A DNA stretch of 64,000 bases from Chaetoderma sp. LZ-2023a (Eukaryota > Mollusca > Caudofoveata > Chaetodermatida > Chaetodermatidae), in the NCBI GenBank assembly GCA_034401795.1, contig CM067372.1, positions 15,718,424 through 15,782,423 on the forward strand, in the 5' to 3' direction. Of the stretch, positions 1 to 59,037 are shown piece after piece. The notes under the pieces are model-generated. The model saw only the letters and a program-made list of their open reading frames with translations. It was not told the origin of the DNA and searched no databases. The first letter of the stretch is position 1, and each line of letters opens with the position of its first letter. The translations under genes and the position numbers were made by a program.

Positions 1-113
1 CGCGCATGCGCCGACTACTACTTCCTCTGACTAATTTATTGGCTGACACACATGCAACTAATAAGAGCCTGAAGACCGAGCCTCTGTGGGGTGGAGAGGC
101 CGGGTCCGTATCT

Positions 114-208
114 AGGGAGGTAAGTATCAACTCTCTCGTGAAAAAAGAAATCCTAGATTTCGTTTATTTCACATCAAGAGTATACTTACCTCCCTAATAC
201 TTTTGATA
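114..208. repeat. Internal complementary region of copy A
   Basis: The first half is the reverse complement of the family's left end (GGGAGGTAAGTATC then CTCTCGTGAAAAAAG). The second half is the reverse complement of the right end (CACATCAAGAGTATACTTAC). The two meet at ATTTCGTTTATTTC. This is the complement of a right-end/left-end junction, as in a circular DIRS intermediate. In DIRS elements this region is thought to template completion of the termini. It lies between the recombinase stop codon and the left ITR. Confidence 0.88.
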
Positions 209-747
209 TTGCCAGAATTCGACAGGGAATTCGGCGGGAGGGAGGCGAGGTCAAAAGACCAGCTCTTTCCTATGCGCTTTCACGCATTCAAGGCACTTAA
301 ACGTCTGAAACTGTGTGAAACACAGTCAGGATTTGAAGAAAATATCGGCTAACACCAACCGATGGATGAGATGACCGATGTCATATGCGCTCCCCCACCC
401 CGCCTCCTTCCTGGAGGGAAGACTAGCATGACCTCAATGTCTTATACGCTCTTTAGGTACCAGTGCCATGTACTATAGGACAGAGATGAAAAGGCTCCAC
501 TTTCGTATACTCTCAATGATGAACCACATCAAAACACAAACCATCACCATATTAATAAAAACAGGTAACGTGACAATACAATCAACAATGAACAACACAT
601 GAACAAGACTGACCTTGTTGAACTTGGCCGCTGCCATCCTCTTCCCAGTGGAGAAGACCGATGCAGTCCCAAAAAGTGGATGTTTCCATTGATTAATTGT
701 GAAGTATATAAGCAATGAGGAAATCCTCCTCAAAAACATATAAGCGA

Positions 748-2277
748 TTATTTTTTCAAAATCGACAAGGCGAGAGGATTCGAGGTGTCACGGAGATAAT
801 GGTCTGTAAAACTTGACTCACAGTGCCACTGAGCCACGGACATAATGTCATCCACAGGGACCCCATTAAATAGGGCAGTGGAAGTCACTACGCCCCGGAC
901 GCTGTGAGCCTTAGCTATGTCAACCTGCTTACCAGTGGCGGATTTGTGACAAAATTGGATACACTCTACAATCCACCTGGAAATGGTGTCCTTAGACACC
1001 CTGCCATGGGGTTCAATATATGACAACCATAACGCTGACTGATCGGTCCGCCACTCCGAAGTACGCTGTTTGTACCGAAGTAGCGCCCGAATGGGACACC
1101 ATGCTTTAGAATTAGGATCATATCTAGTTAAAGCAGGCAAAAAAATAGGTTGACCTGGATATTTCAAAGACTGATTTTTAGCTAAGAAATTAATCCTAGG
1201 TAGTAACTTAAGGCCTTCCCCTGTAACCACAAAACGGTCATCCTCGGCTGATAAGGCATGAATCTCACTCCTACGCCTAGCCGAGGCCACAGCAATTAAA
1301 AATACAGTTTTAAGAGTGAACATTTTCATAGAAAAGGAACTAAGTGGTTCAAAAGGCTTATCTCCTAGTACTTGAAGCACTAGCGATAAACTCCAAGACG
1401 GAATCACCGGGGGATTCCTTGGTCTTAGATTGCCCATGCCTTTAATTAACACATTTAATGTACTTACTTCATCACTTCCCCTCCTAGCCAAGCAAGGAAT
1501 AACAGTCATTAAAGCTGACTTATAACCAGCAATAGAGTTAGGCTTGAGGCTATAGGCATCATACAGGTGACAGAGGAAATCAGCTACTACCTGAATAGAT
1601 GAATCCATTGGATTAATACATCTTTTTGAGCACCACTCTGCAAATCTGTTGATTTTATAGTTATATGCTCTGGAGGTTGACCCCCTCCTGGCTTTGGCCA
1701 TAAACATGGCTGCTTGCTCAGAAAAGCCCTCCTTAATTCTAGATTCCTTGACAACATCCATGCAGTCAATCTGAACATTGACGGATTGTTGTGAAGGGCC
1801 TTGCACTGGAAGATAATGTCGTCCATCAGAGGTAGAGGAACCGGATTGCAGACCAGAAGGTCCAGCAGATCCGTATACCATGATTGGCTTGGCCAATCCG
1901 GGGCGATCAGAAGCACTTGGCATTCCTCCTGTCTGATTTTCTGAAGAATTTTTGGAATCAGGATTGCTGGAGGGAATGCATATGCATACATTCTCCCCCA
2001 GCTGATAGCTAACGCATCTGTTGCGAAAGCGCATGGATCTGGAATCGGAGAGACGTACGTCGTCATCTTCGCATTCCTCTTCGTTGCGAACAAATCGATG
2101 TTGGGTTTCCCCCAATGGTCGAACAGACGATCCGCCACACATTGATTTAGTTGCCATTCCGTCGGTAAAACACTCATCCTTCGGCTCAATGAGTCTGCTA
2201 GCAGATTCAACCTTCCCGGAATATGAACTGCTTTCAAGGTAATCCTGTGATCCAGGCACCAACAAAGCAGTCTCCAT
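748..2277 (-). CDS. Tyrosine recombinase ORF of copy A (intact, 509 codons)
   Basis: This is the integrase of a DIRS element, which inserts a circular DNA intermediate by strand exchange. The first ~175 codons overlap the RNase H/methyltransferase-like frame of the RT ORF and may be translated from a later start. The recognisable part begins near residue 180. An N-terminal core-binding region (AYNYKINRFAEWC) is followed by the catalytic set: Arg in ARRRSEI (334-336), H-x-x-R in AHSVRG (H458, R461), Trp/His in AQWHCE (484-485) and the nucleophile Tyr494 in DHYLRD. No stop or frameshift interrupts it. Copy C has a near-identical ORF. Lys370 or Lys372 may be the beta-hairpin lysine, but that is a guess. 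Confidence 0.88.
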   Translation of the reverse strand: METALLVPGSQDYLESSSYSGKVESASRLIEPKDECFTDGMATKSMCGGSSVRPLGETQHRFVRNEEECEDDDVRLSDSRSMRFRNRCVSYQLGENVCICIPSSNPDSKNSSENQTGGMPSASDRPGLAKPIMVYGSAGPSGLQSGSSTSDGRHYLPVQGPSQQSVNVQIDCMDVVKESRIKEGFSEQAAMFMAKARRGSTSRAYNYKINRFAEWCSKRCINPMDSSIQVVADFLCHLYDAYSLKPNSIAGYKSALMTVIPCLARRGSDEVSTLNVLIKGMGNLRPRNPPVIPSWSLSLVLQVLGDKPFEPLSSFSMKMFTLKTVFLIAVASARRRSEIHALSAEDDRFVVTGEGLKLLPRINFLAKNQSLKYPGQPIFLPALTRYDPNSKAWCPIRALLRYKQRTSEWRTDQSALWLSYIEPHGRVSKDTISRWIVECIQFCHKSATGKQVDIAKAHSVRGVVTSTALFNGVPVDDIMSVAQWHCESSFTDHYLRDTSNPLALSILKK

Positions 2278-3649
2278 GTCATCATACAGAGACCGGGCCC
2301 AGGACTACTGCTCTTAGCTCCAGTAGATTTATATGTTCTTTTGACTGTTCCAGATTCCAAAGCCCTGATATTGTGGATTCTTCCAGGCAAGCTCCCCACC
2401 CCTCCATCGATGCATCTGTATACACAGTCACCTGAGGGTCGGGAGGGGTTAGCATAACCCCCACCAAGAGATTCTCCGTGTTCAACCACCATTGCAGGTG
2501 GTGAATCAGAGGGGCCAACACTGACACGTTCGAGTCCAGCGAACCTGTACTCTGGGTCCATTGTGTCATGAGAAATAACTGGATCGGCCGCCTGCGTAAG
2601 GCGGCCTGAGGAATGACTGGTTCCAATGAAACGATCAACCCCAGCATTCTCAAGTAAACCCGTGCCAGGACATGACGACTGTCGCACACTGACTGAATTA
2701 CTGAGATGAGTTTCTGAACTCTCTCCTGAGTAGGATAAACATATCCTGTCTCTAGATCGAAGAACATCCCCAGGTAACCAAACTTCTGGGATGGAGTCAT
2801 CTCCGATTTTTGGAAATTGATTATCCAGCCCAAGTCTGTGAGAGTCTTCAAAACAATCTCCTGGGTGTGTGCTTTTAACAGCCAGTGGTCTATGTACGTG
2901 TGGACTGCTATGCTTCTCCTGCGGAGGTATGCGGTGATCGCAAGAACCACACGGGTGAAAACCCGAGGAGCCATGGAAATTCCGAAGGGTAACACCCTGA
3001 ATTCCCACTGTCTGCCCTGGAATGCAAATCTCAGGAAGCGACGGAAACTCCTGGCTATGGGGATGTGGAAATAAGCATCCTTCAAATCTATCGACGCTGT
3101 CCACATTCCCCTCTCTAACCCCGCCAACACCGAGCGCACAGTCTCCATCTTGCAACTGGGCGTCTCTATGAACTTGTTCAATGGCTTGAGGTTGAGAATT
3201 GGTCTCCACCCTCCGGTGTTTTTTGTTACTAAGAACACGGTTGAATAGAAGCCCGGACACCTTTGTGCCGGCTGAATAGCTCCTTTTTGTATGAGGGAAG
3301 TTATCTCCTCCTCGATACACAACCTTTGATCTGGATCTCTCGGATTCGGAGTCCAGATCGGCATGAGAGACAGTCGTGACGGCGGGCCTGTCATCCAATC
3401 GGGATGATACCCGACTGAAAGCCATCGCAAGACTAAACGGTCCTGAGTCAACCGTTCCCATTCTTGCATGTGGGCGGCCAGCCGGCCTCCCACCGGTCCA
3501 CCTAGGGAGAGAGGTGGACATAAGGAGTGCAAGAGTGGCACTGTCTCTTCCGCCAGAAACACCAGAGTGGTTCTCACCGTAGCAATCGGCCCATCAGGCA
3601 CGATTACCACGACCAGATCCCCGCGCGCCACGCCCAGCACCACGCGCAA
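1587..3649 (-). pseudogene. RT / RNase H / MT-like ORF of copy A, broken
   Basis: Reverse transcriptase lies in 2282-3649. It has the PILNLKPLNKFI, DLKDAYFHIPI and VLPFGIS motifs, but the catalytic YIDD reads YIDH, so the RT should be inactive. RNase H begins with YTDASMEGWG. A deletion of about 115 bp near 2290, relative to copies C and D, removes the RSDNSTVVTYINRQGG segment with a catalytic Asp and shifts the frame. The rest of RNase H (HIPGRLNLLADSLSR) and the MT-like region (NIDLFATKRN) continue in another frame down to 1587. The 3' part overlaps the recombinase ORF. Confidence 0.85.
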
Positions 3650-3703
3650 CTCGGTGCGCGGGTGGCTGTCTGGCTGGCTGTGCCTGGGGAGCCTGCGCCC
3701 CCC

Positions 3704-4483
3704 TCACTGCTGGCCGAAGCGCACGCGGCCTAAGCCGACGCTGCGATGGCGGGTGGCCTCTGACTTGGCCACATCCCCAGACGGCGACCCTAGCAGGAAA
3801 TCCTCTTCCTCCTGGCCAGAAAGATTAGACTCCGGGTCAGCAAAGAGAGCTAACCCGGACTGGCCAGGGAAGGTGCCATAGGAGGTACTGGCACCCGCGG
3901 CGTGCGGATCCCCCTGGACTGATAAGCAGCCCGCGGGTTCCTGCGACAGCCGTCCACGGCCCCTCGGCGCGGCACCAAGCCTGCTGCCAGGGTCGAGGAT
4001 CGACCCCACTAATGGGGCCACCTCTGAATCGTCGAACAACATAACCGACCTATGGAAAAGTGACTCAGAGGTGGGGATCACCTGCTCTGAAGCAGACGCC
4101 GAGGACAACAAAGGATCTGGTCCAGGAAGCATGCTACGAAGCAACTCTGGGACCAAATCCTTTATCGTCCTCTTCATCTCTCCCAACATTTCGGACCGGA
4201 AGGCCTCCATATCCACCGCGGACGAGGCCTTCCTCTTACCCTTCTTACTGACACCCTCTCTCTTCTGCTTCTTCTCCTCCTCCACCACCTTGTCCTTAGC
4301 CTGTAAACACAGAAACTCAGACATTAGCTCGCCCCCCCCCCCCCATTGCTTACAGACCTCACACTTAAGCAGTGGTCCACAGGGACTACAGCTAAAGCAT
4401 AAGTGGGGGACGAAACGATCCTTTAGGAACCGGCCACAGGACGGACAACCAGGTCTCTGAAACAGGACACAGGACGAGGACAA
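3704..4483 (-). pseudogene. Gag of copy A, internally deleted, fused to a Cys-rich leader
   Basis: The frame opens with a Cys-rich leader of zinc-ribbon type (PGCPSCGRF, then HLCFSCSPCG and KCEVCKQW). It passes through a run of 13 G and enters gag (ELMSEFLCLQAKDK, then a basic SKKGKRKASS segment). At about 3775 the acidic LLGSPSGDVA stretch jumps to the basic C-terminal tail (RHRSVGLGRVRFG). About 1.2 kb present in copies C and D is missing. Short matching sequence at the two break points (GGCCAC versus GGTCAC) suggests a microhomology deletion. Of the five copies examined, this is the only one where the Cys leader and gag share a frame. Confidence 0.75.
4332..4344. repeat. Homopolymer tract (13 C on +, G in sense) at the gag start, copy A
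   Basis: A pure G run in coding sense separates the Cys-rich leader from gag. Lengths in other copies are 12 (B2, 21863-21874), 17 (C, 39783-39799), 9 (D, 52838-52846) and 10 (E, 56277-56286). The length decides whether leader and gag are in one frame. Confidence 0.85.
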
Positions 4484-4499
4484 TGAGCAAGTTAGTCAA

Positions 4500-5068
4500 C
4501 GTTAGAAAAAACTCAAAACCAACTAAAGAGAGGGAAAAGATCATAAAGATCAGTAACCATAAGAAACCAGCGTTGGACAAAACTTTAAATGTAAATAAAG
4601 AGCAAGGCTGATTATGACGTCATCAATCCCATGACAGAAATTAAATCGGTCCGCAACAAGCATCTAAGTGCAAGAACGAATTGTATTCCTAACATAACGT
4701 CCTCACTTGGATATTCAGACTACACACCATCAGATACACAATGATAACAATGGTAAATACAGTCATTATTTTCTCAAATAATTAACATCACCTCATATCA
4801 TTAGTTAGATACCTGATACCTGGTATAGACAAACCATCCACCTGATGCACTGTATCACTCCACCAAGACCACGCCTCTTAACTCTCTCCACCTTAGGGGA
4901 AGGAATTGGATCAAGAGGGCAAAGTGAGATCTTTATACTAGGCCTCCGACTCACTGGACATAGACTTTTTGGTTAGATAACCTAACAGTATTAGTAGGAA
5001 ATGGAACCAAGGTGGAGAAAAACAAACTCTCTGATACTGTGATGTCCATTACATATCCTCACCTAGAC
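4500..5068 (-). other. 5' UTR of copy A, exon-2 part
   Basis: No coding sequence is seen between the Cys-rich leader and the apparent intron acceptor. A second candidate 3' splice site (TACTAATACTGTTAG, sense strand, near 5000-4985) is also conserved in B2, C and D. AT-rich and shared by all close copies. Confidence 0.5.
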
Positions 5069-5213
5069 CTGTGGACATAAACACAAAGAGAGATTAGCAT
5101 TATATAGCACCTAGTTGAAATAAACCAACTAAACAAGGCGCTTATCACGGTAAACGCGAGTCCCGGAAACACATTTCAACGGGAAAAACTCGCTAGAATA
5201 TATTTGAAATCAC
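5069..5213 (-). promoter_or_regulatory. Predicted 145-nt 5' UTR intron, copy A
   Basis: In coding sense the segment starts CAG|GTGATTTC. It ends with a CTAAT branch-like site, a pyrimidine tract and TTTATGTCCACAG. The same start and end, exactly 145 nt apart, occur in B2 (22604-22748), C (40529-40673) and D (53579-53723). In the more diverged E it is 160 nt (57166-57325). B1 keeps the acceptor (about 23322) but its donor is changed. Conservation of both borders between subfamilies is the evidence. Splicing itself is inferred. Confidence 0.5.
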
Positions 5214-5640
5214 CTGATATAAGGATCCTGCGCCTTCCTCCGGCGAAGTAGCTCTCTCAGACATAATCCAGGTGATATACTCTCACACAACAAGACTAAA
5301 TAAACCCAGAACGAGTGGAAACTTTGCACAAGCATGCGCGGTGGTGGGGCTGGCATCCGCCGGACTACCCTCTGTCTACCTGCCCAGTAAACTCGCTAGA
5401 ATGTCATTGAAATCACCTGATAAAGAGATCCAGTTCCCTCCTCTGGTGAATTTGTCCTCTCAGACATCTCTCTTCACTAGTACTCGAACACAACAGACGT
5501 GAAATAGGCTTAAAACGCGTGAAACTTGAAGATAACTGCAAGCACATGTGTTCTCCTTGCCAATAAATTAGCAAAGAGGAAGTAGTAGTCGGCGCATGCG
5601 CGGTGGTGGGGCTGGCATCCGCCGGACTACCTCTGACTAC
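5185..5640. repeat. Tandem duplication of 5' UTR plus ITR segment in copy A
   Basis: The block starting AACTCGCTAGAAT and ending CTGCCCAGTA occurs twice in a row, at about 5187-5392 and 5391-5648. Each copy includes the GGTGGGGCTGGCATCCGCCG part of the ITR. Copies C and D have one copy only, so this is private to A. Confidence 0.75.
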
Positions 5641-5750
5641 CTGCCCAGTAGGGGCACCTAACTGTTTTTAATCTGAGTGTTTATTGAGTGAACGCCAATA
5701 TTTAGCAATATCAAAAGTATTAGGGAGGTAAGTATACTCTTGATGTGAAA
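5575..5750. repeat. Right (5') inverted terminal repeat of copy A
   Basis: It runs from the AATAAATTAGC region through GCGCATGCGC (5592-5601), CTGCCCAGTAGGGGCACC and GGGAGGTAAGTATACTC to the end. It is the reverse complement of the left ITR of C (33444-33619), plus a short terminal extension unique to this end. Confidence 0.88.
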
Positions 5751-5919: not shown

Positions 5920-6579
5920 CTGGAAATAATTAAAACAATTTCCTAAATGCCCAGAGGTTGGGATTGTCATCCACAGGTAGGACCGCATATATGCAACTGT
6001 CATGTTGTTAAACTGCTGACTGCTCTATAAGAGTTATTAAGTGCTTTCTTTATAGGCTTTACTGGTAATATGATTCAAAGGTAGGAACTTTATTAATGTT
6101 GACAAACTTTCATAGAAAAATGTGTAAGCTACATAAGGCCTATTCTCGCAACACCATCGGACCATACTAATTACGTCTGTCCGGAGTTACGACATCATGG
6201 AGGATTAACCCTCTGCCAGCGTGAGAATGCATAAGGCTTAGAAAGTACACCCCTGCCATATCAAGACATCACACTTTGTTCTCAAAGGCTACATAGGCAC
6301 ATCACCCACCACACATCATTTGAGTCACCCATATCCTCTGCTTCAAATAGGGCTTGAGAATGATACATTAAAATGTCTACCAAACATCTTATTGGCTTAC
6401 AATTTGTTCACAGGGGTTATGTCCCCATTAGTTGTGGCAACAGCTGTTCAGTTGGTAACTGATGAACTGTTATTATTGTGTCAGAGATGTGCTAATCACT
6501 CAACAAATGCTTCTCCCAAAAAGATTAGCATTCTCACTTCCTGGTTCCACAATAATATTCTAAGGCAAATTTGAAATAT
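5920..6579. other. Intron sequence, no gene seen
   Basis: AT-rich intron between the host exon at 5811-5919 and the satellite. An 84-codon plus-strand ORF (6320-6574) shows no family motif and lies antisense to the host gene. I treat it as chance. Confidence 0.5.
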
Positions 6580-9500
6580 CTGATAGTAGTAAAAGATCAA
6601 CCCTTTAGCACTGATATTAGTAAAAGATCAACCATTAGCACTGATATTAGTAAAAGATCAACCATTTAGCACTGATATTAGTAAAAGATCAACCCTTTAG
6701 CACTGATATTAGTAAAAGATCAACCATTTAGCACTGATATTAGTAAAAGATCAACCATTAGCACTGATATTAGTAAAAGATCAACCCTTTAGCACTGATA
6801 TTAGTAAAAGATAAACCCTTTAGCACTGATATTAGTAAAAGATCAACCATTTAGCACTGATATTAGTAAAAGATCAACCATTTAGCACTGATATTAGTAA
6901 AAGATCAACCCTTTAGCACTGATATTAGTAAAAGATCAACCATTTAGCACTGATATTAGTAAAAGATCAACCATTAGCACTGATATTAGTAAAAGATCAA
7001 CCCTTTAGCACTGATATTAGTAAAAGATAAACCCTTTAGCACTGATATTAGTAAAAGATCAACCATTAGCACTGATATTAGTAAAAGATCAACCCTTTAG
7101 CACTGATATTAGTAAAAGATCAACCCTTTAGCACTGATATTAGTAAAATCAACCATTAGCACTGATATTAGTAAAAGATCAACCATTAGCACTGATATTA
7201 GTAAAAGATAAACCCTTTAGCACTGATATTAGTAAAAGATAAACCCTTTAGCACTGATATTAGTAAAATCAACCATTAGCACTGATATTAGTAAAAGATC
7301 AACCATTAGCACTGATATTAGTAAAAGATCAACCATTTAGTACTGATATTAGTAAAAGATCAACCATTAGCACTGATATTAGTAAAAGATCAACCATTAG
7401 CACTGATATTAGTAAAAGATAAACCCTTTAGCACTGATATTAGTAAAATCAACCATTAGCACTGATATTAGTAAAAGATCAACCATTTAGCACTGATATT
7501 AGTAAAAGATCAACCATTAGCACTGATATTAGTAAAAGATAAACCCTTTAGCACTGATATTAGTAAAATCAACCATTAGCACTGATATTAGTAAAAGATC
7601 AACCATTAGCACTGATATTAGTAAAAGATCAACCATTTAGCACTGATATTAGTAAAAGATCAACCTTTAGCACTGATATTAGTAAAAGATCAACCATTAG
7701 CACTGATATTAGTAAAAGATCAACCATTTAGCACTGATATTAGTAAAAGATCAACCATTTAGCACTGATATTAGTAAAAGATCAACCATTAGCACTGATA
7801 TTAGTAAAAGATCAACCCTTTAGCACTGATATTAGTAAAAGATCAACCATTAGCACTGATATTAGTAAAAGATCAACCATTTAGCACTGATATTAGTAAA
7901 AGATCAACCATTTAGCACTGATATTAGTAAAAGATCAACCATTTAGCACTGATATTAGTAAAAGATCAACCATTTAGCACTGATATTAGTAAAAGATCAA
8001 CCCTTTAGCACTGATATTAGTAAAAGATCAACCATTTAGCACTGATATTAGTAAAAGATCAACCATTAGCACTGATATTAGTAAAAGATCAACCATTTAG
8101 CACTGATATTAGTAAAAGATCAACCATTAGCACTGATATTAGTAAAAGATCAACCCTTTAGCACTGATATTAGTAAAAGATCAACCCTTTAGCACTGATA
8201 TTAGTAAAAGATCAACCATTAGCACTGATATTAGTAAAAGATCAACCCTTTAGCACTGATATTAGTAAAAGATCAACCATTTAGCACTGATATTAGTAAA
8301 AGATCAACCATTTAGCACTGATATTAGTAAAAGATCAACCCTTTAGCACTGATAGTAGTAAAAGATCAACCATTAGCACTGATATTAGTAAAAGATCAAC
8401 CATTAGCACTGATATTAGTAAAAGATCAACCATTAGCACTGATATCAGTAAAAGATCAGCCATTAGCACTGATATCAGTAAAAGATCAACCATTAGCACT
8501 GATATTAGTAAAAGATCAACCATTAGCACTGATATTAGTAAAAGATCAACCATTAGCACTGATATTAGTAAAAGATCAACCATTAGCACTGATATCAGTA
8601 AAAGATCAACCATTAGCACTGATATTAGTAAAAGATAAACCATTAGCACTGATATTAGTAAAAGATCAACCATTAGCACTGATAGTAGTAAAAGATAAAC
8701 CATTAGCACTGATAGTAGTAAAAGATCAACCCTTTAGCACTGATATTAGTAAAAGATCAACCCTTTAGCACTGATATTAGTAAAAGATCAACCATTAGCA
8801 CTGATATTAGTAAAAGATCAACCATTTAGCACTGATATTAGTAAAAGATCAACCATTTAGCACTGATAGTAGTAAAAGATCAACCATTTAGCACTGATAT
8901 TAGTAAAAGATCAACCCTTTAGCACTGATAGTAGTAAAAGATCAACCATTTAGCACTGATATTAGTAAAAGATCAACCATTAGCACTGATATTAGTAAAA
9001 GATCAACCATTTAGCACTGATATTAGTAAAAGATCAACCATTTAGCACTGATAGTAGTAAAAGATCAACCATTTAGCACTGATATTAGTAAAAGATCAAC
9101 CCTTTAGCACTGATAGTAGTAAAAGATCAACCATTTAGCACTGATATTAGTAAAAGATCAACCATTAGCACTGATAGTAGTAAAAGATCAACCATTTAGC
9201 ACTGATATTAGTAAAAGATAAACCCTTTAGCACTGATATTAGTAAAAGATCAACCATTAGCACTGATAGTAGTAAAAGATCAACCATTTAGCACTGATAT
9301 TAGTAAAAGATCAACCATTTAGCACTGATATTAGTAAAAGATCAACCATTTAGCACTGATAGTAGTAAAAGATCAACCATTTAGCACTGATATTAGTAAA
9401 AGATCAACCCTTTAGCACTGATAGTAGTAAAAGATCAACCATTTAGCACTGATATTAGTAAAAGATCAACCATTAGCACTGATAGTAGTAAAAGATCAAC

Positions 9501-11724
9501 CATTTAGCACTGATATTAGTAAAAGATAAACCCTTTAGCACTGATATTAGTAAAAGATAAACCCTTTAGCACTGATATTAGTAAAAGATCAACCATTTAG
9601 CACTGATATTAGTAAAAGATCAACCATTAGCACTGATATTAGTAAAAGATCAACCCTTTAGCACTGATATTAGTAAAAGATCAACCCTTTAGCACTGATA
9701 TTAGTAAAAGATCAACCATTAGCACTGATATTAGTAAAAGATCAACCATTTAGCACTGATATTAGTAAAAGATCAACCATTTAGCACTGATATTAGTAAA
9801 AGATCAACCATTTAGCACTGATATTAGTAAAAGATCAACCATTAGCACTGATATTAGTAAAAGATCAACCATTTAGCACTGATATTAGTAAAAGATCAAC
9901 CATTTAGCACTGATATTAGTAAAAGATCAACCATTTAGCACTGATATTAGTAAAAGATAAACCCTTTAGCACTGATAGTAGTAAAAGATCAACCATTTAG
10001 CACTGATATTAGTAAAAGATCAACCATTAGCACTGATAGTAGTAAAAGATCAACCATATAGCACTGATATTAGTAAAAGATCAACCATTAGCACTGATAT
10101 TAGTAAAAGATCAACCATTTAGCACTGATATTAGTAAAAGATAAACCCTTTAGCACTGATATTAGTAAAAGATAAACCCTTTAGCACTGATATTAGTAAA
10201 AGATCAACCATTTAGCACTGATATTAGTAAAAGATCAACCATTAGCACTGATATTAGTAAAAGATCAACCCTTTAGCACTGATATTAGTAAAAGATCAAC
10301 CCTTTAGCACTGATATTAGTAAAAGATCAACCATTAGCACTGATATTAGTAAAAGATCAACCATTTAGCACTGATATTAGTAAAAGATCAACCATTTAGC
10401 ACTGATATTAGTAAAAGATCAACCATTTAGCACTGATATTAGTAAAAGATCAACCATTAGCACTGATATTAGTAAAAGATCAAACATTTAGCACTGATAT
10501 TAGTAAAAGATCAACCATTTAGCACTGATATTAGTAAAAGATCAACCATTTAGCACTGATATTAGTAAAAGATAAACCCTTTAGCACTGATATTAGTAAA
10601 AGATCAACCATTAGCACTGATATTAGTAAAAGATCAACCATTAGCACTGATATTAGTAAAAGATCAACCATTTAGCACTGATATTAGTAAAAGATCAACC
10701 ATTTAGCACTGATATTAGTAAAAGATCAACCATTTAGCACTGATATTAGTAAAAGATCAACCATTTAGCACTGATATTAGTAAAAGATAAACCCTTTAGC
10801 ACTGATATTAGTAAAAGATCAACCATTAGCACTGATATTAGTAAAAGATCAACCATTTAGCACTGATATTAGTAAAAGATCAACCATTTAGCACTGATAT
10901 TAGTAAAAGATCAACCCTTTAGCACTGATATTAGTAAAAGATCAACCATTTAGCACTGATATTAGTAAAAGATAAACCCTTTAGCACTGATATTAGTAAA
11001 AGATCAACCATTTAGCACTGATATTAGTAAAAGATCAACCATTAGCACTGATATTAGTAAAAGATCAACCATTTAGCACTGATATTAGTAAAAGATCAAC
11101 CATTTAGCACTGATATTAGTAAAAGATCAACCCTTTAGCACTGATATTAGTAAAAGATCAACCCTTTAGCACTGATATTAGTAAAAGATCAACCATTTAG
11201 CACTGATATTAGTAAAAGATCAACCATTAGCACTGATATTAGTAAAAGATCAACCATTTAGCACTGATATTAGTAAAAGATCAACCATTAGCACTGATAT
11301 TAGTAAAAGATCAACCATTAGCACTGATATTAGTAAAAGATCAACCCTTTAGCACTGATATTAGTAAAAGATCAACCCTTTAGCACTGATATTAGTAAAA
11401 GATCAACCATTTAGCACTGATATTAGTAAAAGATCAACCATTAGCACTGATATTAGTAAAAGATCAACCATTTAGCACTGATATTAGTAAAAGATCAACC
11501 ATTTAGCCCTGATATTAGTAAAAGATCAACCATTTAGCACTGATATTAGTAAAAGATCAACCATTAGCACTGATATTAGTAAAAGATCAACCCTTTAGCA
11601 CTGATATTAGTAAAAGATCAACCCTTTAGCACTGATATTAGTAAAAGATCAACCATTAGCACTGATATTAGTAAAAGATAAACCATTAGCACTGATAGTA
11701 GTAAAAGATCAACCCTTTAGCACT
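6580..11724. repeat. 30/31-bp satellite array, about 5.1 kb
   Basis: The unit is GATCAACC(A/C)TTTAGCACTG then ATATTAGTAAAA. The main variants are 31 bp (ATTT or CTTT), 30 bp (ATTA), GATAAACC, a short form that has lost GAT, and a GATAGTAG form. About 165-170 copies. Variant order repeats over several units (for example 8850-9110 against 9030-9290), so there is higher-order structure. Runs of pure 30-bp units keep frames open and give a spurious repetitive ORF at 8335-8709. The last unit runs directly into a MITE body at 11725. Confidence 0.97.
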
Positions 11725-11930
11725 CAAGCCTCCCAAAAATGGCTTCTGCAGTGGTCATGAGAAATGTCCATTTGCAAACCAAGAGAAGACGATTTTGGAA
11801 AATTTACCACTGTAGTGACTCGCCCATCATTCCAGTGATAAATATTTTAAAATAGTCATCTCTTGGATTGCAAATGGCCATTTTCTTTGAGAAAATTGAA
11901 ATTTTCTTGAATGTTTTGAGCATCGGTAAG
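11712..11930. mobile_element. Palindromic MITE remnant at the satellite edge
   Basis: It starts CCCTTTAGCACTCA, which is also the last satellite unit. It continues GGCTTCTGCAGTGGTCATGA, matching the MITE at 23852-24083. The second half (ATTTTAAAATAGTCATCTC, GAAAATTGAAATTTTCTTGA) is the inverted partner. The far terminal repeat has decayed. It ends near the GAGCATCGG sequence. Confidence 0.75.
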
Positions 11931-12007
11931 TGAATATTATCTGAAGTAATCATTGCTATGAAGCACCATGGTAGACATAAACATAGAATATCCTTCAACA
12001 TTATTAC

Positions 12008-15449: not shown

Positions 15450-15702
15450 AAATAAACAAAATCATGGTTATAATTACCTCCCTAACACTCTATGACATTT
15501 CCTAAATATCGACCTTCACTCAATAACCCCAGATTAAAAAAGATAGGTGCCCTTACTGAGCAGATACAGGTGACAGTCTGCTGGATGCCGGCACCAACCT
15601 TGCGCATGCGCAGACTGACACTGCCTCAGCTTGACTATTGGCTAACACATGCAACTTAAAAGCCTGAAGACCGAGCCTCTGTGGGGCAGAGGCCAGGTCC
15701 GT

Positions 15703-15800
15703 GTTAGGGAGGTAAGTATAACTACTCTCTCGTGAAAAAAGAAATCCGTGATTTCGTTTATTTCATTTCAAGAGATATATTTACATCCCTAACACTCTAC
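15703..15800. repeat. Internal complementary region of B1
   Basis: GTTAGGGAGGTAAGTATAAC through GAAATCCGTGATTTCGTTTA to TACATCCCTAACACT. It has the same two-half layout as in A and C. The outer left end of B1 has drifted and no longer matches this region as well. Confidence 0.8.
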
Positions 15801-16334
15801 GATATTGCCAGAATTCGTAAGTGAATTCGGCGGGAGGGAGGCGAGGTCAAAAGAGCAGCTCATCCCTGGCACGTTTTTGCGCATGAAGCACTAACATCTG
15901 AAATTGTGTGACAGACACAATCAGGCAATGATTTGAACATCGGATGGCACAACCAATGGTGAGAGTAATGACCATATATCAAATGCACTCCCTACTCCCT
16001 CCTTTTGGGAAATCAGAGACTATGACCTCAATACGCTCTCTTAGTACTGGCGCTAAATACTACAGGACACGAGATGAAAGACTTCATTTTCATATACTCT
16101 CAATAGATACACAGGTAGCATTACATTCTTATTAAGAAAGGGTAATACATCGTGACAATAAATTATGTAACAACAAAAGGCAGTACTGACCTCATGCATG
16201 TAAGCTGTATCCATCCAGTCCACATCAGTGAAGGAAAAATGATATCGAATATGCGGTTGTTTCCACAATTAAAATGTGCTGTCTGAAAACAGCAAGTGCA
16301 ACTTATCTACAATATATACACCTGATCATCTTTT

Positions 16335-17330
16335 GAATATCGATAAGGCAAGAGGATTAGTGGTGTCAAGGAGGTAATGGTCGGTAAAACCTGACTCACA
16401 GTGCCACTGAGCTACAGACATAATGTCATCCACCGGCACCCCGTTAAACAGGGCTGTGGATGCCACTATGCCATGGACAATGTGAGCCTTGGCTAAGTCA
16501 ACTTGTTTACCAGTGGCGGATTTGTCGCAAAATTGAATACATTCCTCAATCCACCTAGATATAGTGTCTTTTGACGCCCTGCCATGGGGTTAAATATAAG
16601 ACAACCATAACAAGGATGGGTCCGTCCGCCATACAGTTGTTTGTACTTGTTACCTGTGTGGACTGGACACCATGCATTTGAATTAGGATCAAACCTAGTC
16701 AAAGCTGGTAAAATAATTGGTTGACCTGGATATTTCAAAGACTGATTCTTAGCCATGAAATTAATCCTAGGTAGAAGCCTAAGGCCTTCTCCTATAACCA
16801 CATAACGGTCTGCCTCAGTGGATAAAGCCTCGGCTGCAGCAATTAAAAATAGAAATGGCACTTAGTGGTTCAAAGGGTTTATCAGCTAGAACTTGAAGCA
16901 CTAGAGATAAACTCCAAGATGAAATCGCTGGTGGATTTCTCGGTCTTAGATTACCCATGCCTTTTATTAAAGTGCTCAATGAACAGACTTCGTCACTTCC
17001 CCTATCAGCCAAGCAAGGGATAACTGACAATAAAGCTGACTTGTAGCCAGCAATAGAGTTAGGCTTGAGGCTGTAGAGTGACAGAAGAAATCGGCTACTA
17101 CCTGAATAGATGCATCTATTGAATTAACATCTCTGTTTGAGCACCATTCTGCAAATCTATTGATTTTATAGTTATATGCTCTGGAGGTTGTCCCCATTCT
17201 GGATTTTGCCATAACCATGGCTGCTTGCTCAGAAAAGCCCTCCTTAACTTTTGATTCCTTGACAACATCCATGCAGTCAATCTGAACATTGACGGATTGT
17301 TGTGAAGGGCCTTGCACTGGAAAATAATAT
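16335..17330 (-). pseudogene. Tyrosine recombinase of B1, decayed
   Basis: Fragments in three frames cover the domain: AYNYKINRFAEWCSNR near 17150, LSTLIKGMGNLRPRNPPA near 16950 and PRINFMAKNQSLKYPGQP near 16740. The ARRRSEIHALS segment with the first catalytic Arg is largely deleted. The H-x-x-R motif reads AHIVHG, so the second catalytic Arg is lost. Frameshifts separate the pieces. Confidence 0.85.
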
Positions 17331-19640
17331 TGTCTATCAGAGGCAGAGGAATCGGATTGCATACCAGAAGGTCCAGCAGATCCATATACCATGATCGGCT
17401 TGGTTAATCTGGGGCGATCAGAAGCACTTGGCACTCCTCCTGCCTGATTTTCTGAAGAACTTTTGGAATCAGGATTGCTGGTGACAATGCGTATGCATAC
17501 ATTCCCTCCCAACTGATAGCTAACGCATCTGTTGTGTAAGTGCTTGGATCTGGAATCGGAGAGACGTATGTCGTCATCATCGCTTTCTTGTTCATTGCGA
17601 ACAAATCTGTTGGGTTTCCCCCAGTGGTCGAACAGACGATCCTCCACACATTGATTTAGTTACCATTCCGTGGGCAAAACACTCATCCTTCGGCTCAATG
17701 AGTCTGCTAGCAGGTTTAGCCTTCCCGGAATGTGAAATGCCTTCAAGGTTATCATATGATCTAGACACCAGCAAGGCAGTTTCCAAGTCATCATACAGAG
17801 ATGGGTGACTTCGTTCCGCCCTGGCAGTTTATGTAAGTCACTACTGTTGAGTTGTCTGATCGAACTATAACAATCTTGCCCTGAACTTTCTTTAAGAAAT
17901 GTTCCAAGTCCAGAACTACTGCTCGTAATTCCGGTCGATTTTTATGTTCATGTGCCTGATCTAGATTCCAAAGCCCTGATAGTGTGGCTTCTTACAGGCA
18001 GGCCCCACATCCCTCCATTGATGCCTCGGTGTACATCATTATTTGAGGGTGGGGAGGGGTGAGCATCACCCCGCCAGGAGATTTTCTGTCTTCATCCACC
18101 ATTGAAGGTAGTGAATATGAGGTTCCCACACTGACACCTCTGAGTCCAGGGAACCTGTCCTCTGGGTCCACTGTGTCATGAGAAATAACTTGATAGGCTG
18201 CCTGTGCACAGCCGCCTGTGCAATGACTGATTCCAGAGAAACCATTAACCCCAGCATTATCAAGTTCCAGATTCCACAGCCCTGATATCGTGGATTCTTC
18301 CAGGCAAGCTCCTCACCCCTATATCGATGCATCCGTATACATCATTAAATGAGGGTGAGGAGGGGTTAGCATCACCCCTGCCAGGAGATTCTCTGTCTTC
18401 ATCCACCATTGAAGGTGGTGAATATGAGGTTCCAACACTGACACCTCTGAGTCCAGGGAACCTGTACTCTGAGTCCACTGTGTCATGAGAAATAACTGGA
18501 TATGCCGCCTGCACAAGGCCGCCTGTGCGATGTCTAATTCCAGAGAAACCATCAACCCCAGCATTATCAAGTAAACCCATGCCAGTACATGATGACTGTT
18601 GCACACTGACTGTATTACTGAGATGAGTATTTCTACTCTCTCTTGATTAGGATAAACATATCCTATCTGTAGATCGAAGAACATTCCCAGATAAACAAAC
18701 TTCTGGGATGGAGTTAGCTCTGATTTCTGAAAGTTTATTATCCAGCCTAAGTCTGTGAGAGTTTTCAAAACTATCTCCAGATTTGCTGCAAGACTTACCT
18801 GATTGTGTGCTTTTAACAGTCAATCATCTATGTAAGTGTGGACGGCTATGCTTCTCCTGCGGAGGTATGCTGTTATTGCAAGAACCACCCTGGTGAAGAC
18901 CCGAGGAGCCATGGAAATTCCAACTAGTAGAACTTTGAATTCCTACTGTCGGCTCTGGAATGCGAATCTCAGGTACCAACGAACTCTTCGCAATTTGAAT
19001 GTGGAAATAAGCATCCTTCAGATCTGTTGACACCGTCCACATTCCCTTCTCCACCTCGCCAACACCGTCTTGACTGTTTCCATCTTGAAACTTGGTGTGT
19101 CTATGAACTTGTTCAATGGCTTGAGGTTGAGAATTGGTCTACACCATCCAGTGCTCTTTGCCACAAGAAACATGGTTGAATAGAAGCCTGGGAAATTTTG
19201 CGCCGGTTGAATTGCTCCTTTTTGAATGAGGGAATTTATCTCTTCCTCTACACACAACCATTGATCTGGATCTCTTGGAATTTGAGTCCCGATCAGAACC
19301 AGAGCTAGATGCGATGATGGGCCTATCGCCCAGTTGGGCTGGTACCTGGCTGAAAGCCATCGCAAGACCCAGCGGTCCTGGGTTAACCGCTCCCACTCTT
19401 GCTTGTGGAGAGCCAATCGACCTCCCACGGGTCCACCTACGGAGAGAGGTGGACATAAGCAGTGCAAGAGTAGGACTGTCTCTGGTTCTAGCATTGGTTT
19501 GGTTCTTGTTGAAATCAGGACATCAGGCACGATTACCATGACCAGATCCTCGCATGCCACGGCTCGCGCCGCCCGCGCCACGGCCCTCTTCGGTGTGCGT
19601 GGCTGCCTGCGCGGGGAGGAGCCTGCACCACCACCACCCC
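17331..19640 (-). pseudogene. RT / RNase H / MT-like region of B1, decayed and partly duplicated
   Basis: The RT N-terminal part is readable at 19018-19640 (PILNLKPLNKFIDTPSFKME). The central part (about 18824-19017) has shifts. The palm segment survives as LGWIINFQKSELTPSQKF at 18319-18768. RNase H and the MT-like region appear in fragments (17404-17649). A tandem duplication of about 305 bp lies inside. Confidence 0.82.
17961..18571. repeat. Direct tandem duplication, about 305 bp, inside B1
   Basis: Two copies of the segment from CCAGATTCCA(A/C)AGCCCTGAT to CCAGCATTATCAAG, at 17961-18265 and 18266-18571. They encode the RT-RNase H linker (LFLMTQWTQ, LDSEVSVWEP/LEP). They differ at scattered sites, so the duplication is not recent. 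Confidence 0.82.
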
Positions 19641-20505
19641 CTCCCACTGCAGCCTGGTGCTGGCATGACCGTGGCCTATGCTGCGCCAGTGGCTGGCCTC
19701 TGACTTGACCAGCGCCACTCGGGCCTGCTGTGGACGGTACACAGGGGTTGCTGTGCAAATGTGCTCCCTACGAAGCACCTCAAATTGCTCGCATAGCGCC
19801 TTCTGATTGTTGACTAGTGACTATCTCTTGGAAGTGTCTACATCCCTCTCCCCCAAAGAGACCAGGACCTGACATAGGCGTCTGCAGCAGCCTGTTGTAC
19901 AAATCCTGGGACGGACACACATTGTCTAGTGCAAATGTGCGTCTCGCCCTGACACTTCTAGTCACTGCCCTAGTCACACAGTCCAGAGTCAGGTTAATAC
20001 CATCCTGGATGGCTCTCTGAACCGAGACAGGGCTTGCTTGGCACAATGCAGATGCTGTTACTACACCTTGTAACAGCTGGAAGACATGCGAGAGCACCGC
20101 TACGGATGCTCTAGATTTATCCTCTGCATCGCGTAATGTGGTATTAGATGAGCGCAGCGCTCCTGTGTCATAATGGGAGTCTGGCTGCGTGTTCTCGCCA
20201 AGCATTGCGCGATCTTCAGCGCTCGGCTTTGGCACTGTACTGTACTTCTGGTATTGGCCAGCAATGATACGACATCGCCTCGCCACCTCGCGGGGGGGGG
20301 GGGGGGGGGTGGGGTTGGGGGGGGGGGGCTTTGCAAGCTGTCAATTAAGCTTAATGGACGTCTCTGCGGCCGTGAACATATCAACTATATGTTCTGCTAA
20401 TGGCAGAGATGGCATAGCGGTAACTGTCGGCTTTCCAGTCAACCACGGGCGCTGGTCCCGCTGGCTTGCCGACTGTTCTACACAGAGCTCTGGCCTAACG
20501 CTTAC
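19640..20505 (-). pseudogene. Gag of B1, C-terminal half only
   Basis: The frame includes VQRAIQDGINLTLDCVTRAV, ARRTFALDNVCPSQDLYNRL and GPGLFGGEGCRHFQE, as in D. It is broken by an expanded G/T tract (20291-20330) and ends abruptly at 20505 in the VEQSA region, where B2 begins. Confidence 0.82.
20291..20330. repeat. G-homopolymer expansion in B1 gag
   Basis: Two long G runs separated by TGGGGTT replace the ACCTCGCGAGGGGCC seen in other copies. A slippage expansion private to B1 that wrecks the frame. Confidence 0.85.
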
Positions 20506-20556
20506 TAAACGAAATCAAGGATTTCTTTTTTCACGAGAGAGTTGATACTTACCTCC

Positions 20557-22603: not shown

Positions 22604-22748
22604 CTGTGGACATAAACACAAAGAGAGATTACTATTATATAGCCCCATGTTGACATAAAACAACTATACTAGGCGCTTATCATGATAAACGCGAGTCCCG
22701 GAAACACATTACACCGGGGAAAACTCGCTAAAATATAATAGAAGTCAC
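22604..22748 (-). promoter_or_regulatory. Predicted 145-nt 5' UTR intron of B2
   Basis: Donor CATCAG|GTGACTTC and acceptor TTTATGTCCACAG| in sense. Same length and borders as in A, C and D. Confidence 0.45.
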
Positions 22749-23600: not shown

Positions 23601-23851
23601 GTTCAGGCCAATAGTCAAGACAGAGGTCGTGACAGTCTGTGCATGCGCGAGGTTGGGCCCGACATCCGGCTGACTGTCACCTGTCTACCTGACCAGTACG
23701 GGCACCTATCTTTTTCGAATCAGGGGTTATTGAGTGAAGGTCGATATTTAGGAAATATAATAGTGTTAGGGAGGTAAGTATTTCTTGAAGTGAAAAGAAA
23801 CCTCTCTGAGTTGAGCAGATTTCTTAGTCCGGATTTATATCTTATATTTAA

Positions 23852-24083
23852 CCCTTTAACACTCATATCGGCTGAAAAGGGCTTCTGCAGTGGTCTTGAA
23901 AAATGTCTATTTGTAGACCAAGAGAAGACTATTTTTGAAATTTTACCACTAGAATGACTGGCTCGATAACTGAGCCAGCCATTCCAGTGGTAAATCTTTT
24001 AAAATAGTCTTCTCTTCCGCTGCAAATGCATATTTTCTATGAAGAAATTGAAATTTTCTTGAACAAATTCGAGGGTTAAAGGG
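23852..24083. mobile_element. Palindromic MITE with TTAA target duplication
   Basis: 232 bp flanked by TTAA on both sides (23848-23851, 24084-24087). The ends are CCCTTTAACACTCATATC and GAGGGTTAAAGGG, inverted. The body is a near-complete palindrome centred on ACTGGCTCGATAACTGAGCC. TTAA target plus CCC/GGG ends is typical of piggyBac-type MITEs. No coding capacity. Confidence 0.85.
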
Positions 24084-24114
24084 TTAACATAAGCGTTAAC
24101 CTGAAATGTCTCCA

Positions 24115-36868: not shown

Positions 36869-36870
<2 letters not shown>

Positions 36871-43953: not shown

Positions 43954-44018
43954 CTACAAAGTGAAGAAGTAATAATATCCATACAGGGTACATCCAATAG
44001 TCTGTTAATAATAAACGT

Positions 44019-44200
44019 TTAACTCTCAAATTTGCTCAAGAAAATAAAAGTTTCTCCTGGAATATGTCCAATTGAAAAACAAGAGACTATTTTTTTTAAT
44101 TTACCAGTGGTAAATTTTCAAAAATATTCTTCTCTTAGTCTGCAAATGGACATTTCTCACACAGCAGCAACCGTTTTTGGCTGATATGAGTGTTAAAGGG
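44019..44200. mobile_element. Palindromic MITE, core-deleted copy
   Basis: Reverse orientation relative to the copy at 23852. It ends GGCTGATATGAGTGTTAAAG then GG and TTAA (44201-44204). The left end is short (TTTAACTCTCAAATTTG). The central ACTGGCTCG palindrome is missing, leaving ACCAGTGGTAAATTTT. Confidence 0.75.
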
Positions 44201-44548
44201 TTAATAACTAAACAATAATGTCAATGGTGAATTCTATTTTATCCATCAATCATATGATGTCATAATCAACTATGTGATGTGTAGGATGAGGTCATAATCA
44301 ATTACATCACAAACGCTTAATTGATGATGGACTAAGTGCTGTTGTATGAATTGCATATCTTTACCATTCAATAAACATAGGCAACAACAACATCAAGTCA
44401 AGTTAGTTTCAAAATATTCAACAGCATACTTGTATAGTTGTTTAGAAATTGAGATTCAGAGTGCAGGGATCGATCGATCCCAACATGAGCAAAAAGTCAG
44501 TGGGTCGCTCTCCCATTGCCACCAATCATGATTAGTACTAGTACTTAC

Positions 44549-44779: not shown

Positions 44780-45232
44780 CTAAAAGTAAATGTAATAAGA
44801 AACACAATTAAATATCTCTTATGTCATGCTGATTATAACTAAACACCAGAGCTTAGGTTAAAAGTCTAACTCATTTGGTAGCTAAACGAATTGTTATGTT
44901 TAGTTGCAATACATTAACTGTCTCATCGCTGGAAGTCACCAGACAATAATTTCAATGGGCAATAACTCTGAATATGCTGAATATTTTGAAAACAATTTGA
45001 CTGAGTTGTTGGTTCCTTAGGTCCCAACAACTTTCAGTCCAATTATTTTCAAAATATTTACCAGGTCTAGTGATATAACCCTTGGAATATGTCGTCTGCT
45101 AAAACTCAGCAGTCAGTCAAGTTCATGATAAAAAATAAAACACCGATACATACACATTTACTGGATATTACACATGGAGTGGGTTTATTTGTGCATATGA
45201 TGACCTTTCACACACTGTGATTACCACCTTAA
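44780..45232. other. Intron, no feature seen
   Basis: AT-rich intron between LamG exons, upstream (in gene sense) of the MITE cluster. Confidence 0.5.
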
Positions 45233-45439
45233 CCCTTCACACTCATATCAACCAAAAACGGATTCTGCTGTGAGTTTGAGAAATGTCCATTTGTAGACAA
45301 AGAGAAAACTATTTTAGAAAATTAAACCACTGGAATGACTGGCTCGGTTATTTTCAAAAATAGTCTTCTCTTGGTCAGCAAATTGACATTTTCTATGAGA
45401 AAATTGAACTTTTCTTCAATAAATTTGGGTGTTAAAGGG
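45233..45439. mobile_element. Palindromic MITE, first of three in a row
   Basis: Preceded by TTAA (45229-45232). Starts CCCTTCACACTCATATCAAC, ends GTGTTAAAGGG. The core is partly deleted (GGCTCGGTTATTTTCAAAAA). Confidence 0.8.
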
Positions 45440-45635
45440 TTCTCTTAGAGAAAAATGTCCATTTTCAGACAAAGAGAAGACTACTTTTGAAAATCTATCA
45501 CTTGAATGACTGGCTCGATAACCGAGCCAGTCATTCCAGTGATAAATTTTCAAAAACAGTCTTCTATTCGTCTGCAAATGAACATTTCTTAAGACCACAG
45601 CAGAAGCCGTTTCTTGGTTGATATGAGTTAACGGG
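45440..45635. mobile_element. Palindromic MITE, second of three
   Basis: It keeps a perfect core stem (TGACTGGCTCGATAACCGAG then CCAGTCA). It ends GAGTTAACGGG and TTAA (45636-45639). The left terminal repeat is truncated against the previous copy. Confidence 0.78.
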
Positions 45636-45639
45636 TTAA

Positions 45640-45830
45640 CCCTCAAATTTCTTATGAAAAACGTCCATTTGCAGACTAAGAGATTAATTCTTTAAACTTA
45701 ACACTGGTTAACCGCTCGGTTATCGAGCCAGTTCTTCCAGTCGTACATTTAAAAAAATAGTATTCTCCTGATTTCAAAATGGAGATTTCTGAAGGAAAAC
45801 TTATCTTTTTGAGTATCGTAGCGTTAATGT
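45640..45830. mobile_element. Palindromic MITE, third of three, diverged
   Basis: Starts CCCTCAAATTTCTTATG after TTAA. Core GGTTAACCGCTCGGTTATCG then AGCCAGTTC. The right end fades into the next tandem array (GCGTTAATGTC). Confidence 0.65.
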
Positions 45831-46545
45831 CTCGGAGAGATGTACACTGACTCTCATTCTGCTCTAAGATATGGACTAAACAGTAGTTTTAATGTCTGAG
45901 AGAGATGTACACCATGGCTCTTATTCTGCTCTAAGATATCAACTAAACAGTAGTATTAATGTCTGAGAGAGATGTACACCGTGGCTCTTATTCTGCTCTA
46001 AGATATCAACTAAACAGTAGTGTTAATGTCTGAGAGAGATGTACTGTGACTCTTATTCTGCTCTAAGATATCAACTAAACAGTAGTGTTAATGTCTGAGA
46101 GAGATGTACTGTGACTCTTATTCTGCTCTAAGATATTAACTAAACGGTAGCATTAATGTCCGAGAGAGATGTACACCGTGGCTCTTATTCTGCTCTAAGA
46201 TATCAACTAAACAGTAGCATTAATGTCTGAGAGAGATGTACTGTGACTCTTATTCTGCTCTAAGATATCAACTAAACAGTAATGTTAATGTCTGAGAGAG
46301 ATGTACTGTGACTCTTATTCTGCTCTAAGATATTAACTAAACGGTAGCATTAATGTCTGAGAGAGATGTACACCATGGCTCTTATTCTGCTCTAAGATAT
46401 CAACTAAACGGTAGCATTAATGTCTGAGAGAGATGTACTGTGACTCCTATTCTGCTCTAAGATATCAACTAAACAGTAGTGTTAATGTCTGAGAGAGATG
46501 TACACCGTGGCTCTTATTCTGCTCTAAGATATCAACTAAACGAGG
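45830..46545. repeat. 65-68-bp tandem repeat, about 11 copies
   Basis: The unit is TAATGTCTGAGAGAGATGTA, (CACCATGG or CTGTGA)CTC, then TTATTCTGCTCTAAGATATC and AACTAAACAGTAG. Two length classes differ in the TACACCGTGG/TACTGTGA segment and are interspersed. It lies in the intron between the first two LamG exons. Confidence 0.95.
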
Positions 46546-58616: not shown

Positions 58617-59037
58617 CTGGACAAGCAATAGAAAACAGTAGGAAAACCAGAACATTGCACGACTGACAAATATTAGTAAAAACTATACAGATTTCAGTAT
58701 CCGATTCAGAGGCAAATTCAACATAACCGTAGCTCATTAATGCAAGCCTCTGCAATGTTCATGAGAATTGTTCATTTGTGGAATAAGACAAAATATTATA
58801 GATAACATGTGCTGGAATGCCGGCCTCATTAACTCTTCCACGAATCCGGGTTTTAAGTTTTCTAAATCTTCCTCTCTTAATTCATAGATGGATGTTCACT
58901 AAGTGAAATTTGCTGATCCATTTTGATAATTAAATGAGTAAACACACACAGACAAAGTTTTTCTATGCAAATCAAAATGATCCGAATCAAACACAGGATT
59001 TTAAACCAGTTCTCAATTTAATATGTAAATTTAAAAT
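58617..59037. other. Intron with a degenerate MITE copy
   Basis: 58740-58910 resembles the palindromic MITE (CATGAGAATTGTTCATTTGT, GCTGGAATGCCGGCCTCATT) without clear ends. The rest is AT-rich. Confidence 0.45.

Follow-up and report, generated by a model that had tools for sequence, protein, structure and literature searches.

How does a tandem array begin, and how much of its repeat unit comes from the transposon beside it? The founding event is usually lost to later turnover, so array beginnings can seldom be seen. Here we ask these questions of a minisatellite array in Chaetoderma sp. LZ-2023a that runs into a miniature inverted-repeat transposable element (MITE). The window, the whole stretch analysed, is 64,000 nt long (C14:15718424-15782423 of the 2.44-Gb assembly), and coordinates are positions in it unless a locus or contig is named. 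An initial annotation had proposed that about 30 bp of the MITE's terminal repeat was amplified in place. We consider another origin likely, with a probability of about 0.78 based on sequence comparison. In this reading, a tandem duplication of about 31 bp arose across the border between host DNA and the MITE and was later amplified at this one locus.

Results

A single-locus minisatellite attached to a MITE

The features on which the argument turns are as follows.

6549..6579, no strand: host flank directly left of the array, without similarity to the MITE half of the unit
6580..11723, + strand: minisatellite array of 168 units, modal length 31 bp, with the commonest form CTGATATTAGTAAAAGATCAACCATTTAGCA in 52 of 168 (Tandem Repeats Finder and unit split)
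6580..6610, + strand: first unit, of type CTGATAGTAGTAAAAGATCAACCCTTTAGCA, shared with the last unit
11692..11712, + strand: putatively host-derived part of the last unit, an old flank of 15-17 bp (11692-11708) followed by TCAA (11709-11712)
11709..11933, + strand: putative parent MITE copy, a TTAA-type snapback element with its left end in phase with the array and its right end degenerate
23848..24087, + strand: full-length MITE copy used as reference by the initial annotation (E=7.2e-76; single-strand fold z=-11.1 against shuffles)

Tandem Repeats Finder reported the array at 6580-11724 with period 31, 168 copies and 93% matches. Splitting 6580-11723 gave 168 head-to-tail units, comprising 110 of 31 bp, 53 of 30 bp, four of 28 bp and one of 32 bp. 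A 20-base unit core, CACTGATATTAGTAAAAGAT, was found 163 times across the assembly when up to one mismatch was allowed, always on the forward strand (0 reverse), and all of these matches were placed in the window array, between 6609 and 11709. Because the core matches are confined to the array, it is a private single-locus minisatellite and not part of a dispersed satellite family. Multi-locus satellite DNA has its unit family at many loci; here 163 of 163 core matches lie in one place. A transposon-derived minisatellite has units of about 10-100 bp that include transposon sequence, and 10-12 bp of this unit correspond to a MITE end, in phase with the attached MITE. These data indicate that the array is a clear and ordinary transposon-derived minisatellite, and its interest is how well the founding step is preserved. 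No function of the array is indicated.

The attached MITE copy gave a profile match at 11711-11916 (envelope 11709-11933, E=1.9e-61) and also aligned with 38 genomic copies. The last array unit (...GATCAACCCTTTAGCACT) passes directly into the MITE body. This copy has TCAA at its left end and no clear right TTAA. We aligned 38 further genomic copies with the array copy and the copy near 23850, which yielded a consensus of 240 bp whose ends, TTAACCCTTTAACACTC...GAGGGTTAAAGGGTTAA, pair. Among the 39 aligned copies other than the array copy, TTAA was present at the left end in 30, at the right end in 23 and at both in 16, as in piggyBac-type MITEs; the target site is thus found at both ends at the family level. 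The terminal 12-mer CCCTTTARCACT occurs 32,570 times in the genome, against 427 for the reversed control. The family is therefore short (about 240 bp), has terminal inverted repeats and is present in high copy number, as expected of a MITE. Kolobok elements also use TTAA. We provisionally assign the family to the piggyBac superfamily from the resemblance of its ends, and the genome contains 119 matches to PF13843 (piggyBac-family transposase). The motif CC[C/T]T directly inside TTAA, taken from PMC2872659, is present in the consensus (TTAACCCTTTAAC...).

Several claims of the initial annotation hold: the array of about 5 kb and 170 units, the unbroken passage of its last unit into a MITE body, and the TTAA-type MITE near 23850. 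The annotation had also said that its proposal would fail if the unit occurred elsewhere in the genome without MITEs, and the core search found no such occurrence.

The unit is best read as a segment of the host/MITE border

The unit and the attached MITE are identical over AACCCTTTAGCACT (through CACT) and then split, the unit continuing as GATAG... and the MITE as CAAGCC.... At its left edge the array begins at the same unit phase as at its right edge (GAAATAT-CT|GATAGTAGTAAAAGATCAACCC). Equal phase at both edges is expected if a segment across the host/MITE border was duplicated, but not if the duplication took only the initial 31 bp of the MITE. On the best reading, the unit consists of 15-17 bp of host flank, the 4 bp of the target site (TCAA) and a MITE end of 10-12 bp. 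The 2-bp uncertainty in this division comes from a shared CT, and the MITE share becomes 14 bases if the AA of the target site is counted. We read the TCAA at 11709-11712 as a TTAA target site with one change.

The initial annotation had matched the unit to the MITE terminal repeat. This agrees with unit bases 1-14, where the copy near 23850 matches at 13 of 14 positions (17 of 20 by eye over a 20-base match). Beyond base 14 the match is much weaker. Unit bases 15-31 match the copy near 23850 at 7-8 of 17 positions and the array's own MITE, which is of the CAAGCC type, at 6 of 17. Amplification in place at one MITE end stands as a description of how the array grew. An amplified piece of terminal repeat about 30 bp long is not supported; only 10-12 of the 31 bases would be MITE.

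The two ends of the array carry the same rare unit. Type CTGATAGTAGTAAAAGATCAACCCTTTAGCA is found only in units 1, 71 and 168 (3/168), and the chance that both ends would draw it is 2e-4. The canonical MITE terminus CCCTTT is present in the first and last units and in 45 of the 168 units overall. These data suggest that the founder sequence has survived at the ends of an array whose interior turned over. The edge phase, the attached MITE and the identity of the end units are directly visible; from them we infer that the end-unit sequence is ancestral and that the non-MITE part of the unit is host flank.

The left flank was examined for traces of a MITE and for an empty site. No MITE-like half-unit was found in the 31 bp that precede the array (P 0.998 when compared with shuffles and 0.92 with random stretches of the window). 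A genome search with the left flank, in which the best 40 of 535 candidates were scored, returned 39 matches other than the window itself, and none of these covers 6242-6585. A MITE remnant in the left flank was considered from a weak signal over 6500-6598 (P 0.02-0.07) and rejected; none is among the profile matches listed. A dispersed repeat of about 90 bp lies left of the array at 6131-6241, with at least 39 other genome copies that are 81-94% identical (among the same best 40 of 535 candidates).

Similar joins occur at other loci

The initial annotation had regarded a captured join of this kind as unusual. We searched the genome for pairs of MITE termini in direct order, spaced by 20-49 bp. 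This pattern gave 119 matches, against 0 for the control, and the first 100 of the 119 were classified. These 100 represent 18 places including the window, or 17 if two arrays on C3, which have different units and lie 9 kb apart, are merged. Measured against the 32,570 terminal words, 18 places correspond to about 1 in 1,800. All 17 places besides the window were dissected, in 18 stretches. In 8 of the 17, a duplication spans the border and MITE sequence continues past the last unit, with 2 to 38 units:

L073: 25 units of 48-50 bp, with only the first 54 MITE profile positions after the array
L075: 38 units of 43 bp, attached to an internally deleted MITE; a local copy, L074, lies next to a run of N
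L077: about 5 units
L078, L079, L081 and L088: two copies each
L089: 7 units of 32 bp

The two-copy case at L079 is exact: a segment made up of 8 bp of flank, TTAA and 23 bp of the MITE occurs twice, after which the MITE goes on. Four further loci have units made of MITE sequence only:

L082: 2 units of 23 bp
L084: 9 units of 26 bp, the least certain of the four
L087, 707-4310 (C15:156584000-156589500): 173 units of 21 bp of MITE terminus, with a MITE attached at 4303-4535
L090: at least 23 units of 26 bp, with a MITE attached

The remaining loci comprise two without an adjacent MITE body (L076, L086), two pairs of adjoining MITEs without duplication (L083, L085) and one outside these classes (L080), for which the copy number is a lower bound. 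The corresponding pattern for right-type termini gave 14 matches at 4 places; two of these (both on C11) have right-type bases beyond the word and two have left-type bases.

Since 8 of 17 other loci have the same kind of join, the window join is one of several in the genome, and the view that it is unusual is not supported here. Short arrays at other MITE copies, which the initial annotation had suggested looking for, thus exist, including the four two-copy loci. Its model of a unit drawn from the terminal inverted repeat (TIR) alone fits L087 better than the window array.

Founding joints and growth of the array

For the window and the eight border-spanning loci, a script rebuilt the unduplicated order, flank then MITE, and located the breakpoints. 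Relative to the first MITE base, the breakpoints at these nine loci fall 10-30 bp into the element and 7-35 bp out into the flank, and none is at TTAA. The absence of breakpoints at TTAA speaks against a simple transposase-cut origin, which we rejected (0/9). Microhomology summed to 8 over the nine joints, where chance would give 6.6 (P=0.35); it was absent from 4 of the 9. An estimate by eye had put it at 2-6 bp at most joints, and slippage driven by microhomology was rejected when the count did not bear this out.

In excerpts from PMC8355091, small tandem duplications are reported to arise at breaks with complementary 3' overhangs through fill-in by Pol alpha-primase and end joining, and duplications joined by polymerase theta show microhomology much more often. 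The nine joints, a small set, appear to fit fill-in end joining better than polymerase-theta joining.

These data lead us to propose the following course of events. A TTAA-type MITE with piggyBac-like ends would have inserted into host DNA. Later, a tandem duplication of about 31 bp would have formed across its left border, taking in 15-17 bp of flank, the target site, which had by then become TCAA, and 10-12 bp from the start of the MITE. This founding step probably began with a staggered break whose fill-in and end joining left a small tandem duplication, which we propose because the joints show no excess of microhomology and lie away from TTAA. The two-unit array would then have expanded to 168 units at one locus, by block duplication or unequal exchange, while its two outermost units stayed close to the founder. 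Block growth is visible in the window array, where a block of 11 units is repeated at a distance of 20 units. Unit types also agree in 28-30% of positions at lags of 6-7, against 21% expected.

The loci can also be placed in order of unit count, from two copies (L078, L079, L081, L088) through 7, 25 and 38 up to 168. At each of them the array still has its flank and MITE sequence attached, which makes every base of the founding duplication legible. We suggest tentatively, and at somewhat less than even odds, that the genome has preserved a series of minisatellites born at MITE borders whose origins can still be read. With joints away from TTAA and no excess of microhomology, the arrays would start as ordinary fill-in end-joining duplications for which the transposon is only a border marker.

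Several observations weigh against a border duplication as the origin of the window array. Bases 15-31 of the ancestral unit resemble MITEs of the CATATCAG subtype more than random 17-mers do (best 11/17, P=0.013; mean, P=0.006), and so do those of the commonest unit (best 12/17, P=0.0016; mean, P=0.003). This nominal similarity favours a unit that is MITE sequence throughout. The stretch 6500-6598 shows similarity to the MITE on either strand at P=0.02-0.07, and 6400-6598 at P=0.055-0.13. The window joint fits worst of the nine, with 34 of 45 predicted bases, where five of the nine joints have 45 of 45; the poor fit reflects derived bases in the next internal unit. The range of MITE-side breakpoints is partly set by the search pattern, which requires the terminal 12-mer; because this forces most of the 12-mer into the unit, the inner minimum is partly an ascertainment effect. 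A second copy of the left flank was not found among the best 40 of 535 candidates in the empty-site search, and no unexpanded allele or orthologue was seen.

Alternative explanations

If the whole unit were MITE sequence, the first ~31 bp of a CATATCAG-type MITE end would have been amplified, either from the array's own copy before a subterminal change or from a second, abutting MITE. The ungapped similarity of bases 15-31 to other MITE copies (P about 0.002-0.013) agrees with this, MITE-only arrays are known elsewhere in the genome (L082, L087, L090 and, less surely, L084), and MITEs abut one another at 45229-45833 in the window. However, the array's own MITE matches at only 6 of 17 positions over these bases, and in gapped local alignment the ancestral unit is unremarkable (P=0.45-0.57) and the commonest borderline (P=0.056-0.10). 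The best match among the 39 other MITE copies is 11/17 for the ancestral unit and 12/17 for the commonest, whereas 37 of 40 MITE copies have a sister at 14/17 or better in this stretch. A TIR-only duplication should start at TTAACCC and end at base 31, and the array does neither; its left flank also lacks a MITE half-unit. We therefore consider an all-MITE unit unlikely and regard host flank as the better reading of the unit beyond base 14, despite the nominal similarity. It is far less probable still that a satellite already existed and a MITE landed in or beside it by chance. MITE ends are abundant (32,570 terminal 12-mers) and minisatellites are frequent in this DNA, but the MITE terminus, intact or in derived form, recurs in the units in phase with the element. 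The array is also confined to one side of the MITE, and the unit core is found nowhere else.

The remaining alternatives concern how such arrays are founded. MITE ends could be special, with transposase nicks or fork stalling at the snapback making their borders a hotspot for new minisatellites. There are many independent border cases, including right-type termini (2 of 4 places), a MITE strand folds strongly (z=-11.1), and 3 of the 5 window arrays with at least 4 units of at least 10 bp lie within about 30 bp of a MITE. A hotspot, hinted at by the window and the first 58 MITE loci, found no support when 118 loci were used. This set of fetched loci (142 kb, 226 MITE matches) includes L096, which has no MITE, and L131, from outside the terminal-word listing; 113 loci with a MITE entered the array test, which skipped arrays lying mostly inside a MITE. 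Of arrays with at least 3 copies outside MITEs, 5 of 14 had a MITE within 30 bp, where 3.96 would be expected (P=0.34). The picture was the same at two other cut-offs, with 5 of 13 (3.87 expected) and 7 of 31 (6.94 expected). Internal MITE words form tandem pairs too: GCAGACCAAGAG gave 186 such matches, of which the first 100 represent about 19 places (merged within 10 kb) and reach contig C13, while the first 100 of the 119 terminus matches represent 17 places under the same merging and reach C173. Another internal word gave 542 matches (130+412), and those listed were filled by one 46-bp array on C1. In 38 loci chosen by body similarity (L009-L046), there are 24 occurrences of the terminal word and 35 of the internal word, and the rates per word look similar. 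The breakpoints avoid TTAA, and none of the 118 fetched loci has termini 20-60 bp apart in direct order. MITE borders are thus probably not a hotspot, and special MITE ends are an improbable cause; tandem duplication seems to hit abundant MITEs and their borders alike. More plausible, though still doubtful, is that the arrays were founded not by fill-in end joining but by slippage of replication between short direct repeats, as in the Haber-Louis model described in excerpts from PMC3389668. Short repeats are present at the window joint (CT, 2 bp) and at L075 (CAG, 3 bp), but microhomology over the nine joints is at the chance level.

Two arrays met in these searches are recorded here. At G000:C1:53403968-53409038 an array of at least 5 kb has a 46-bp unit containing internal MITE sequence. 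At L023:630-918 (C17:95988800-95989800) a six-copy 47-bp array directly follows the right TTAA of a MITE, and its unit is without MITE sequence.

Discussion

Founder-like end units, an attached parent element and two-copy sister loci make the origin step of such arrays countable and testable. They also carry a warning. A transposon terminus in a repeat unit does not make the whole unit transposon sequence, because half or more of the unit can be host flank.

The comparisons that follow draw on excerpts from the papers cited. The Xstir repeats of Xenopus, linked to the Xmix MITE (Hikosaka and Kawahara 2004, via PMC12628747 and PMC9659126), resemble the window array in being short MITE-derived tandem repeats in composite structures of MITE plus array. 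The same work is cited in PMC2872659 for arrays from a piggyBac-MITE. The Xstir unit is described as internal MITE sequence in PMC12628747 and as TIR in a table of PMC9659126. In contrast to Xstir, whose unit is MITE sequence and which occurs in several Xenopus species, the window unit appears to be part host flank and is found at one locus; its match to its own MITE stops at base 14, so it is not an Xstir-like unit wholly derived from a MITE. Other MITE-derived satellites named alongside Xstir in these two reviews include miDNA4, BIV160 and HindIII.

In the Tetris foldback element of Drosophila virilis and its TIR-220 satellite (PMC4079207), repeats from the end region of a foldback transposon likewise grew into longer arrays, with arrays still attached to the element. 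However, the TIR-220 repeats are 220 bp long, lie inside the terminal inverted repeats and are multi-locus, with 610 repeats on 69 contigs, and the excerpts from PMC4079207 do not describe host DNA in the unit. The piggyBac-like coral MITEs (CMITEs; PMC2872659) are also TTAA MITEs with CC[C/T]T ends in tandem arrays, but there full-length elements are repeated and here a 31-bp border segment. The coral arrays were ascribed to replication slippage because the sequence between elements repeats too (PMC2872659).

In the human genome, 7,276 minisatellites have been ascribed to transposons, most of them with two units and mostly without flanking direct repeats (PMC3389668). They resemble the window array in overlapping transposons, and in 136 cases part of an Alu is repeated next to a full Alu. 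The human cases differ in involving human transposons, with Alu prominent, and the excerpts from PMC3389668 do not single out units of host flank plus element end. Among literature titles, mostly from outside subscription journals, we found none announcing units made of host flank and a MITE end, and we claim no priority.

Other features of the window

Profile searches placed further copies of the MITE family in the window:

44011..44204, - strand: MITE copy (E=8e-37)
45229..45833, mixed strands: three abutting MITE copies or fragments, at 45230-45441 (+), 45439-45638 (-) and 45655-45814 (+)
58746..58934, + strand: degenerate MITE copy (E=7.1e-13)

Two other minisatellites lie close to MITE copies. 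One, with 23 units of 60 bp at 24118-25498, begins 30 bp past the right end (24087) of the copy at 23848, and its unit is unlike the MITE. The other, with a 65-bp unit at 45818-46542, starts inside the final few bases of a degenerate MITE fragment (GTAGCGTTAA|TGTC...; region 45655-46542). It may be a second border-spanning array, with a strongly degenerate MITE end.

Long repeats occupy 1-5750, 15602-23088, 33577-41009, 48089-54058 and 59214-64000 of the window and are about 74-93% alike in their longest self-matches. Reverse-transcriptase domains (PF00078) were found on the - strand in 2 of 7 open frames scanned (63 listed). We read the repeats and these domains together as a cluster of related retroelement copies around the array.

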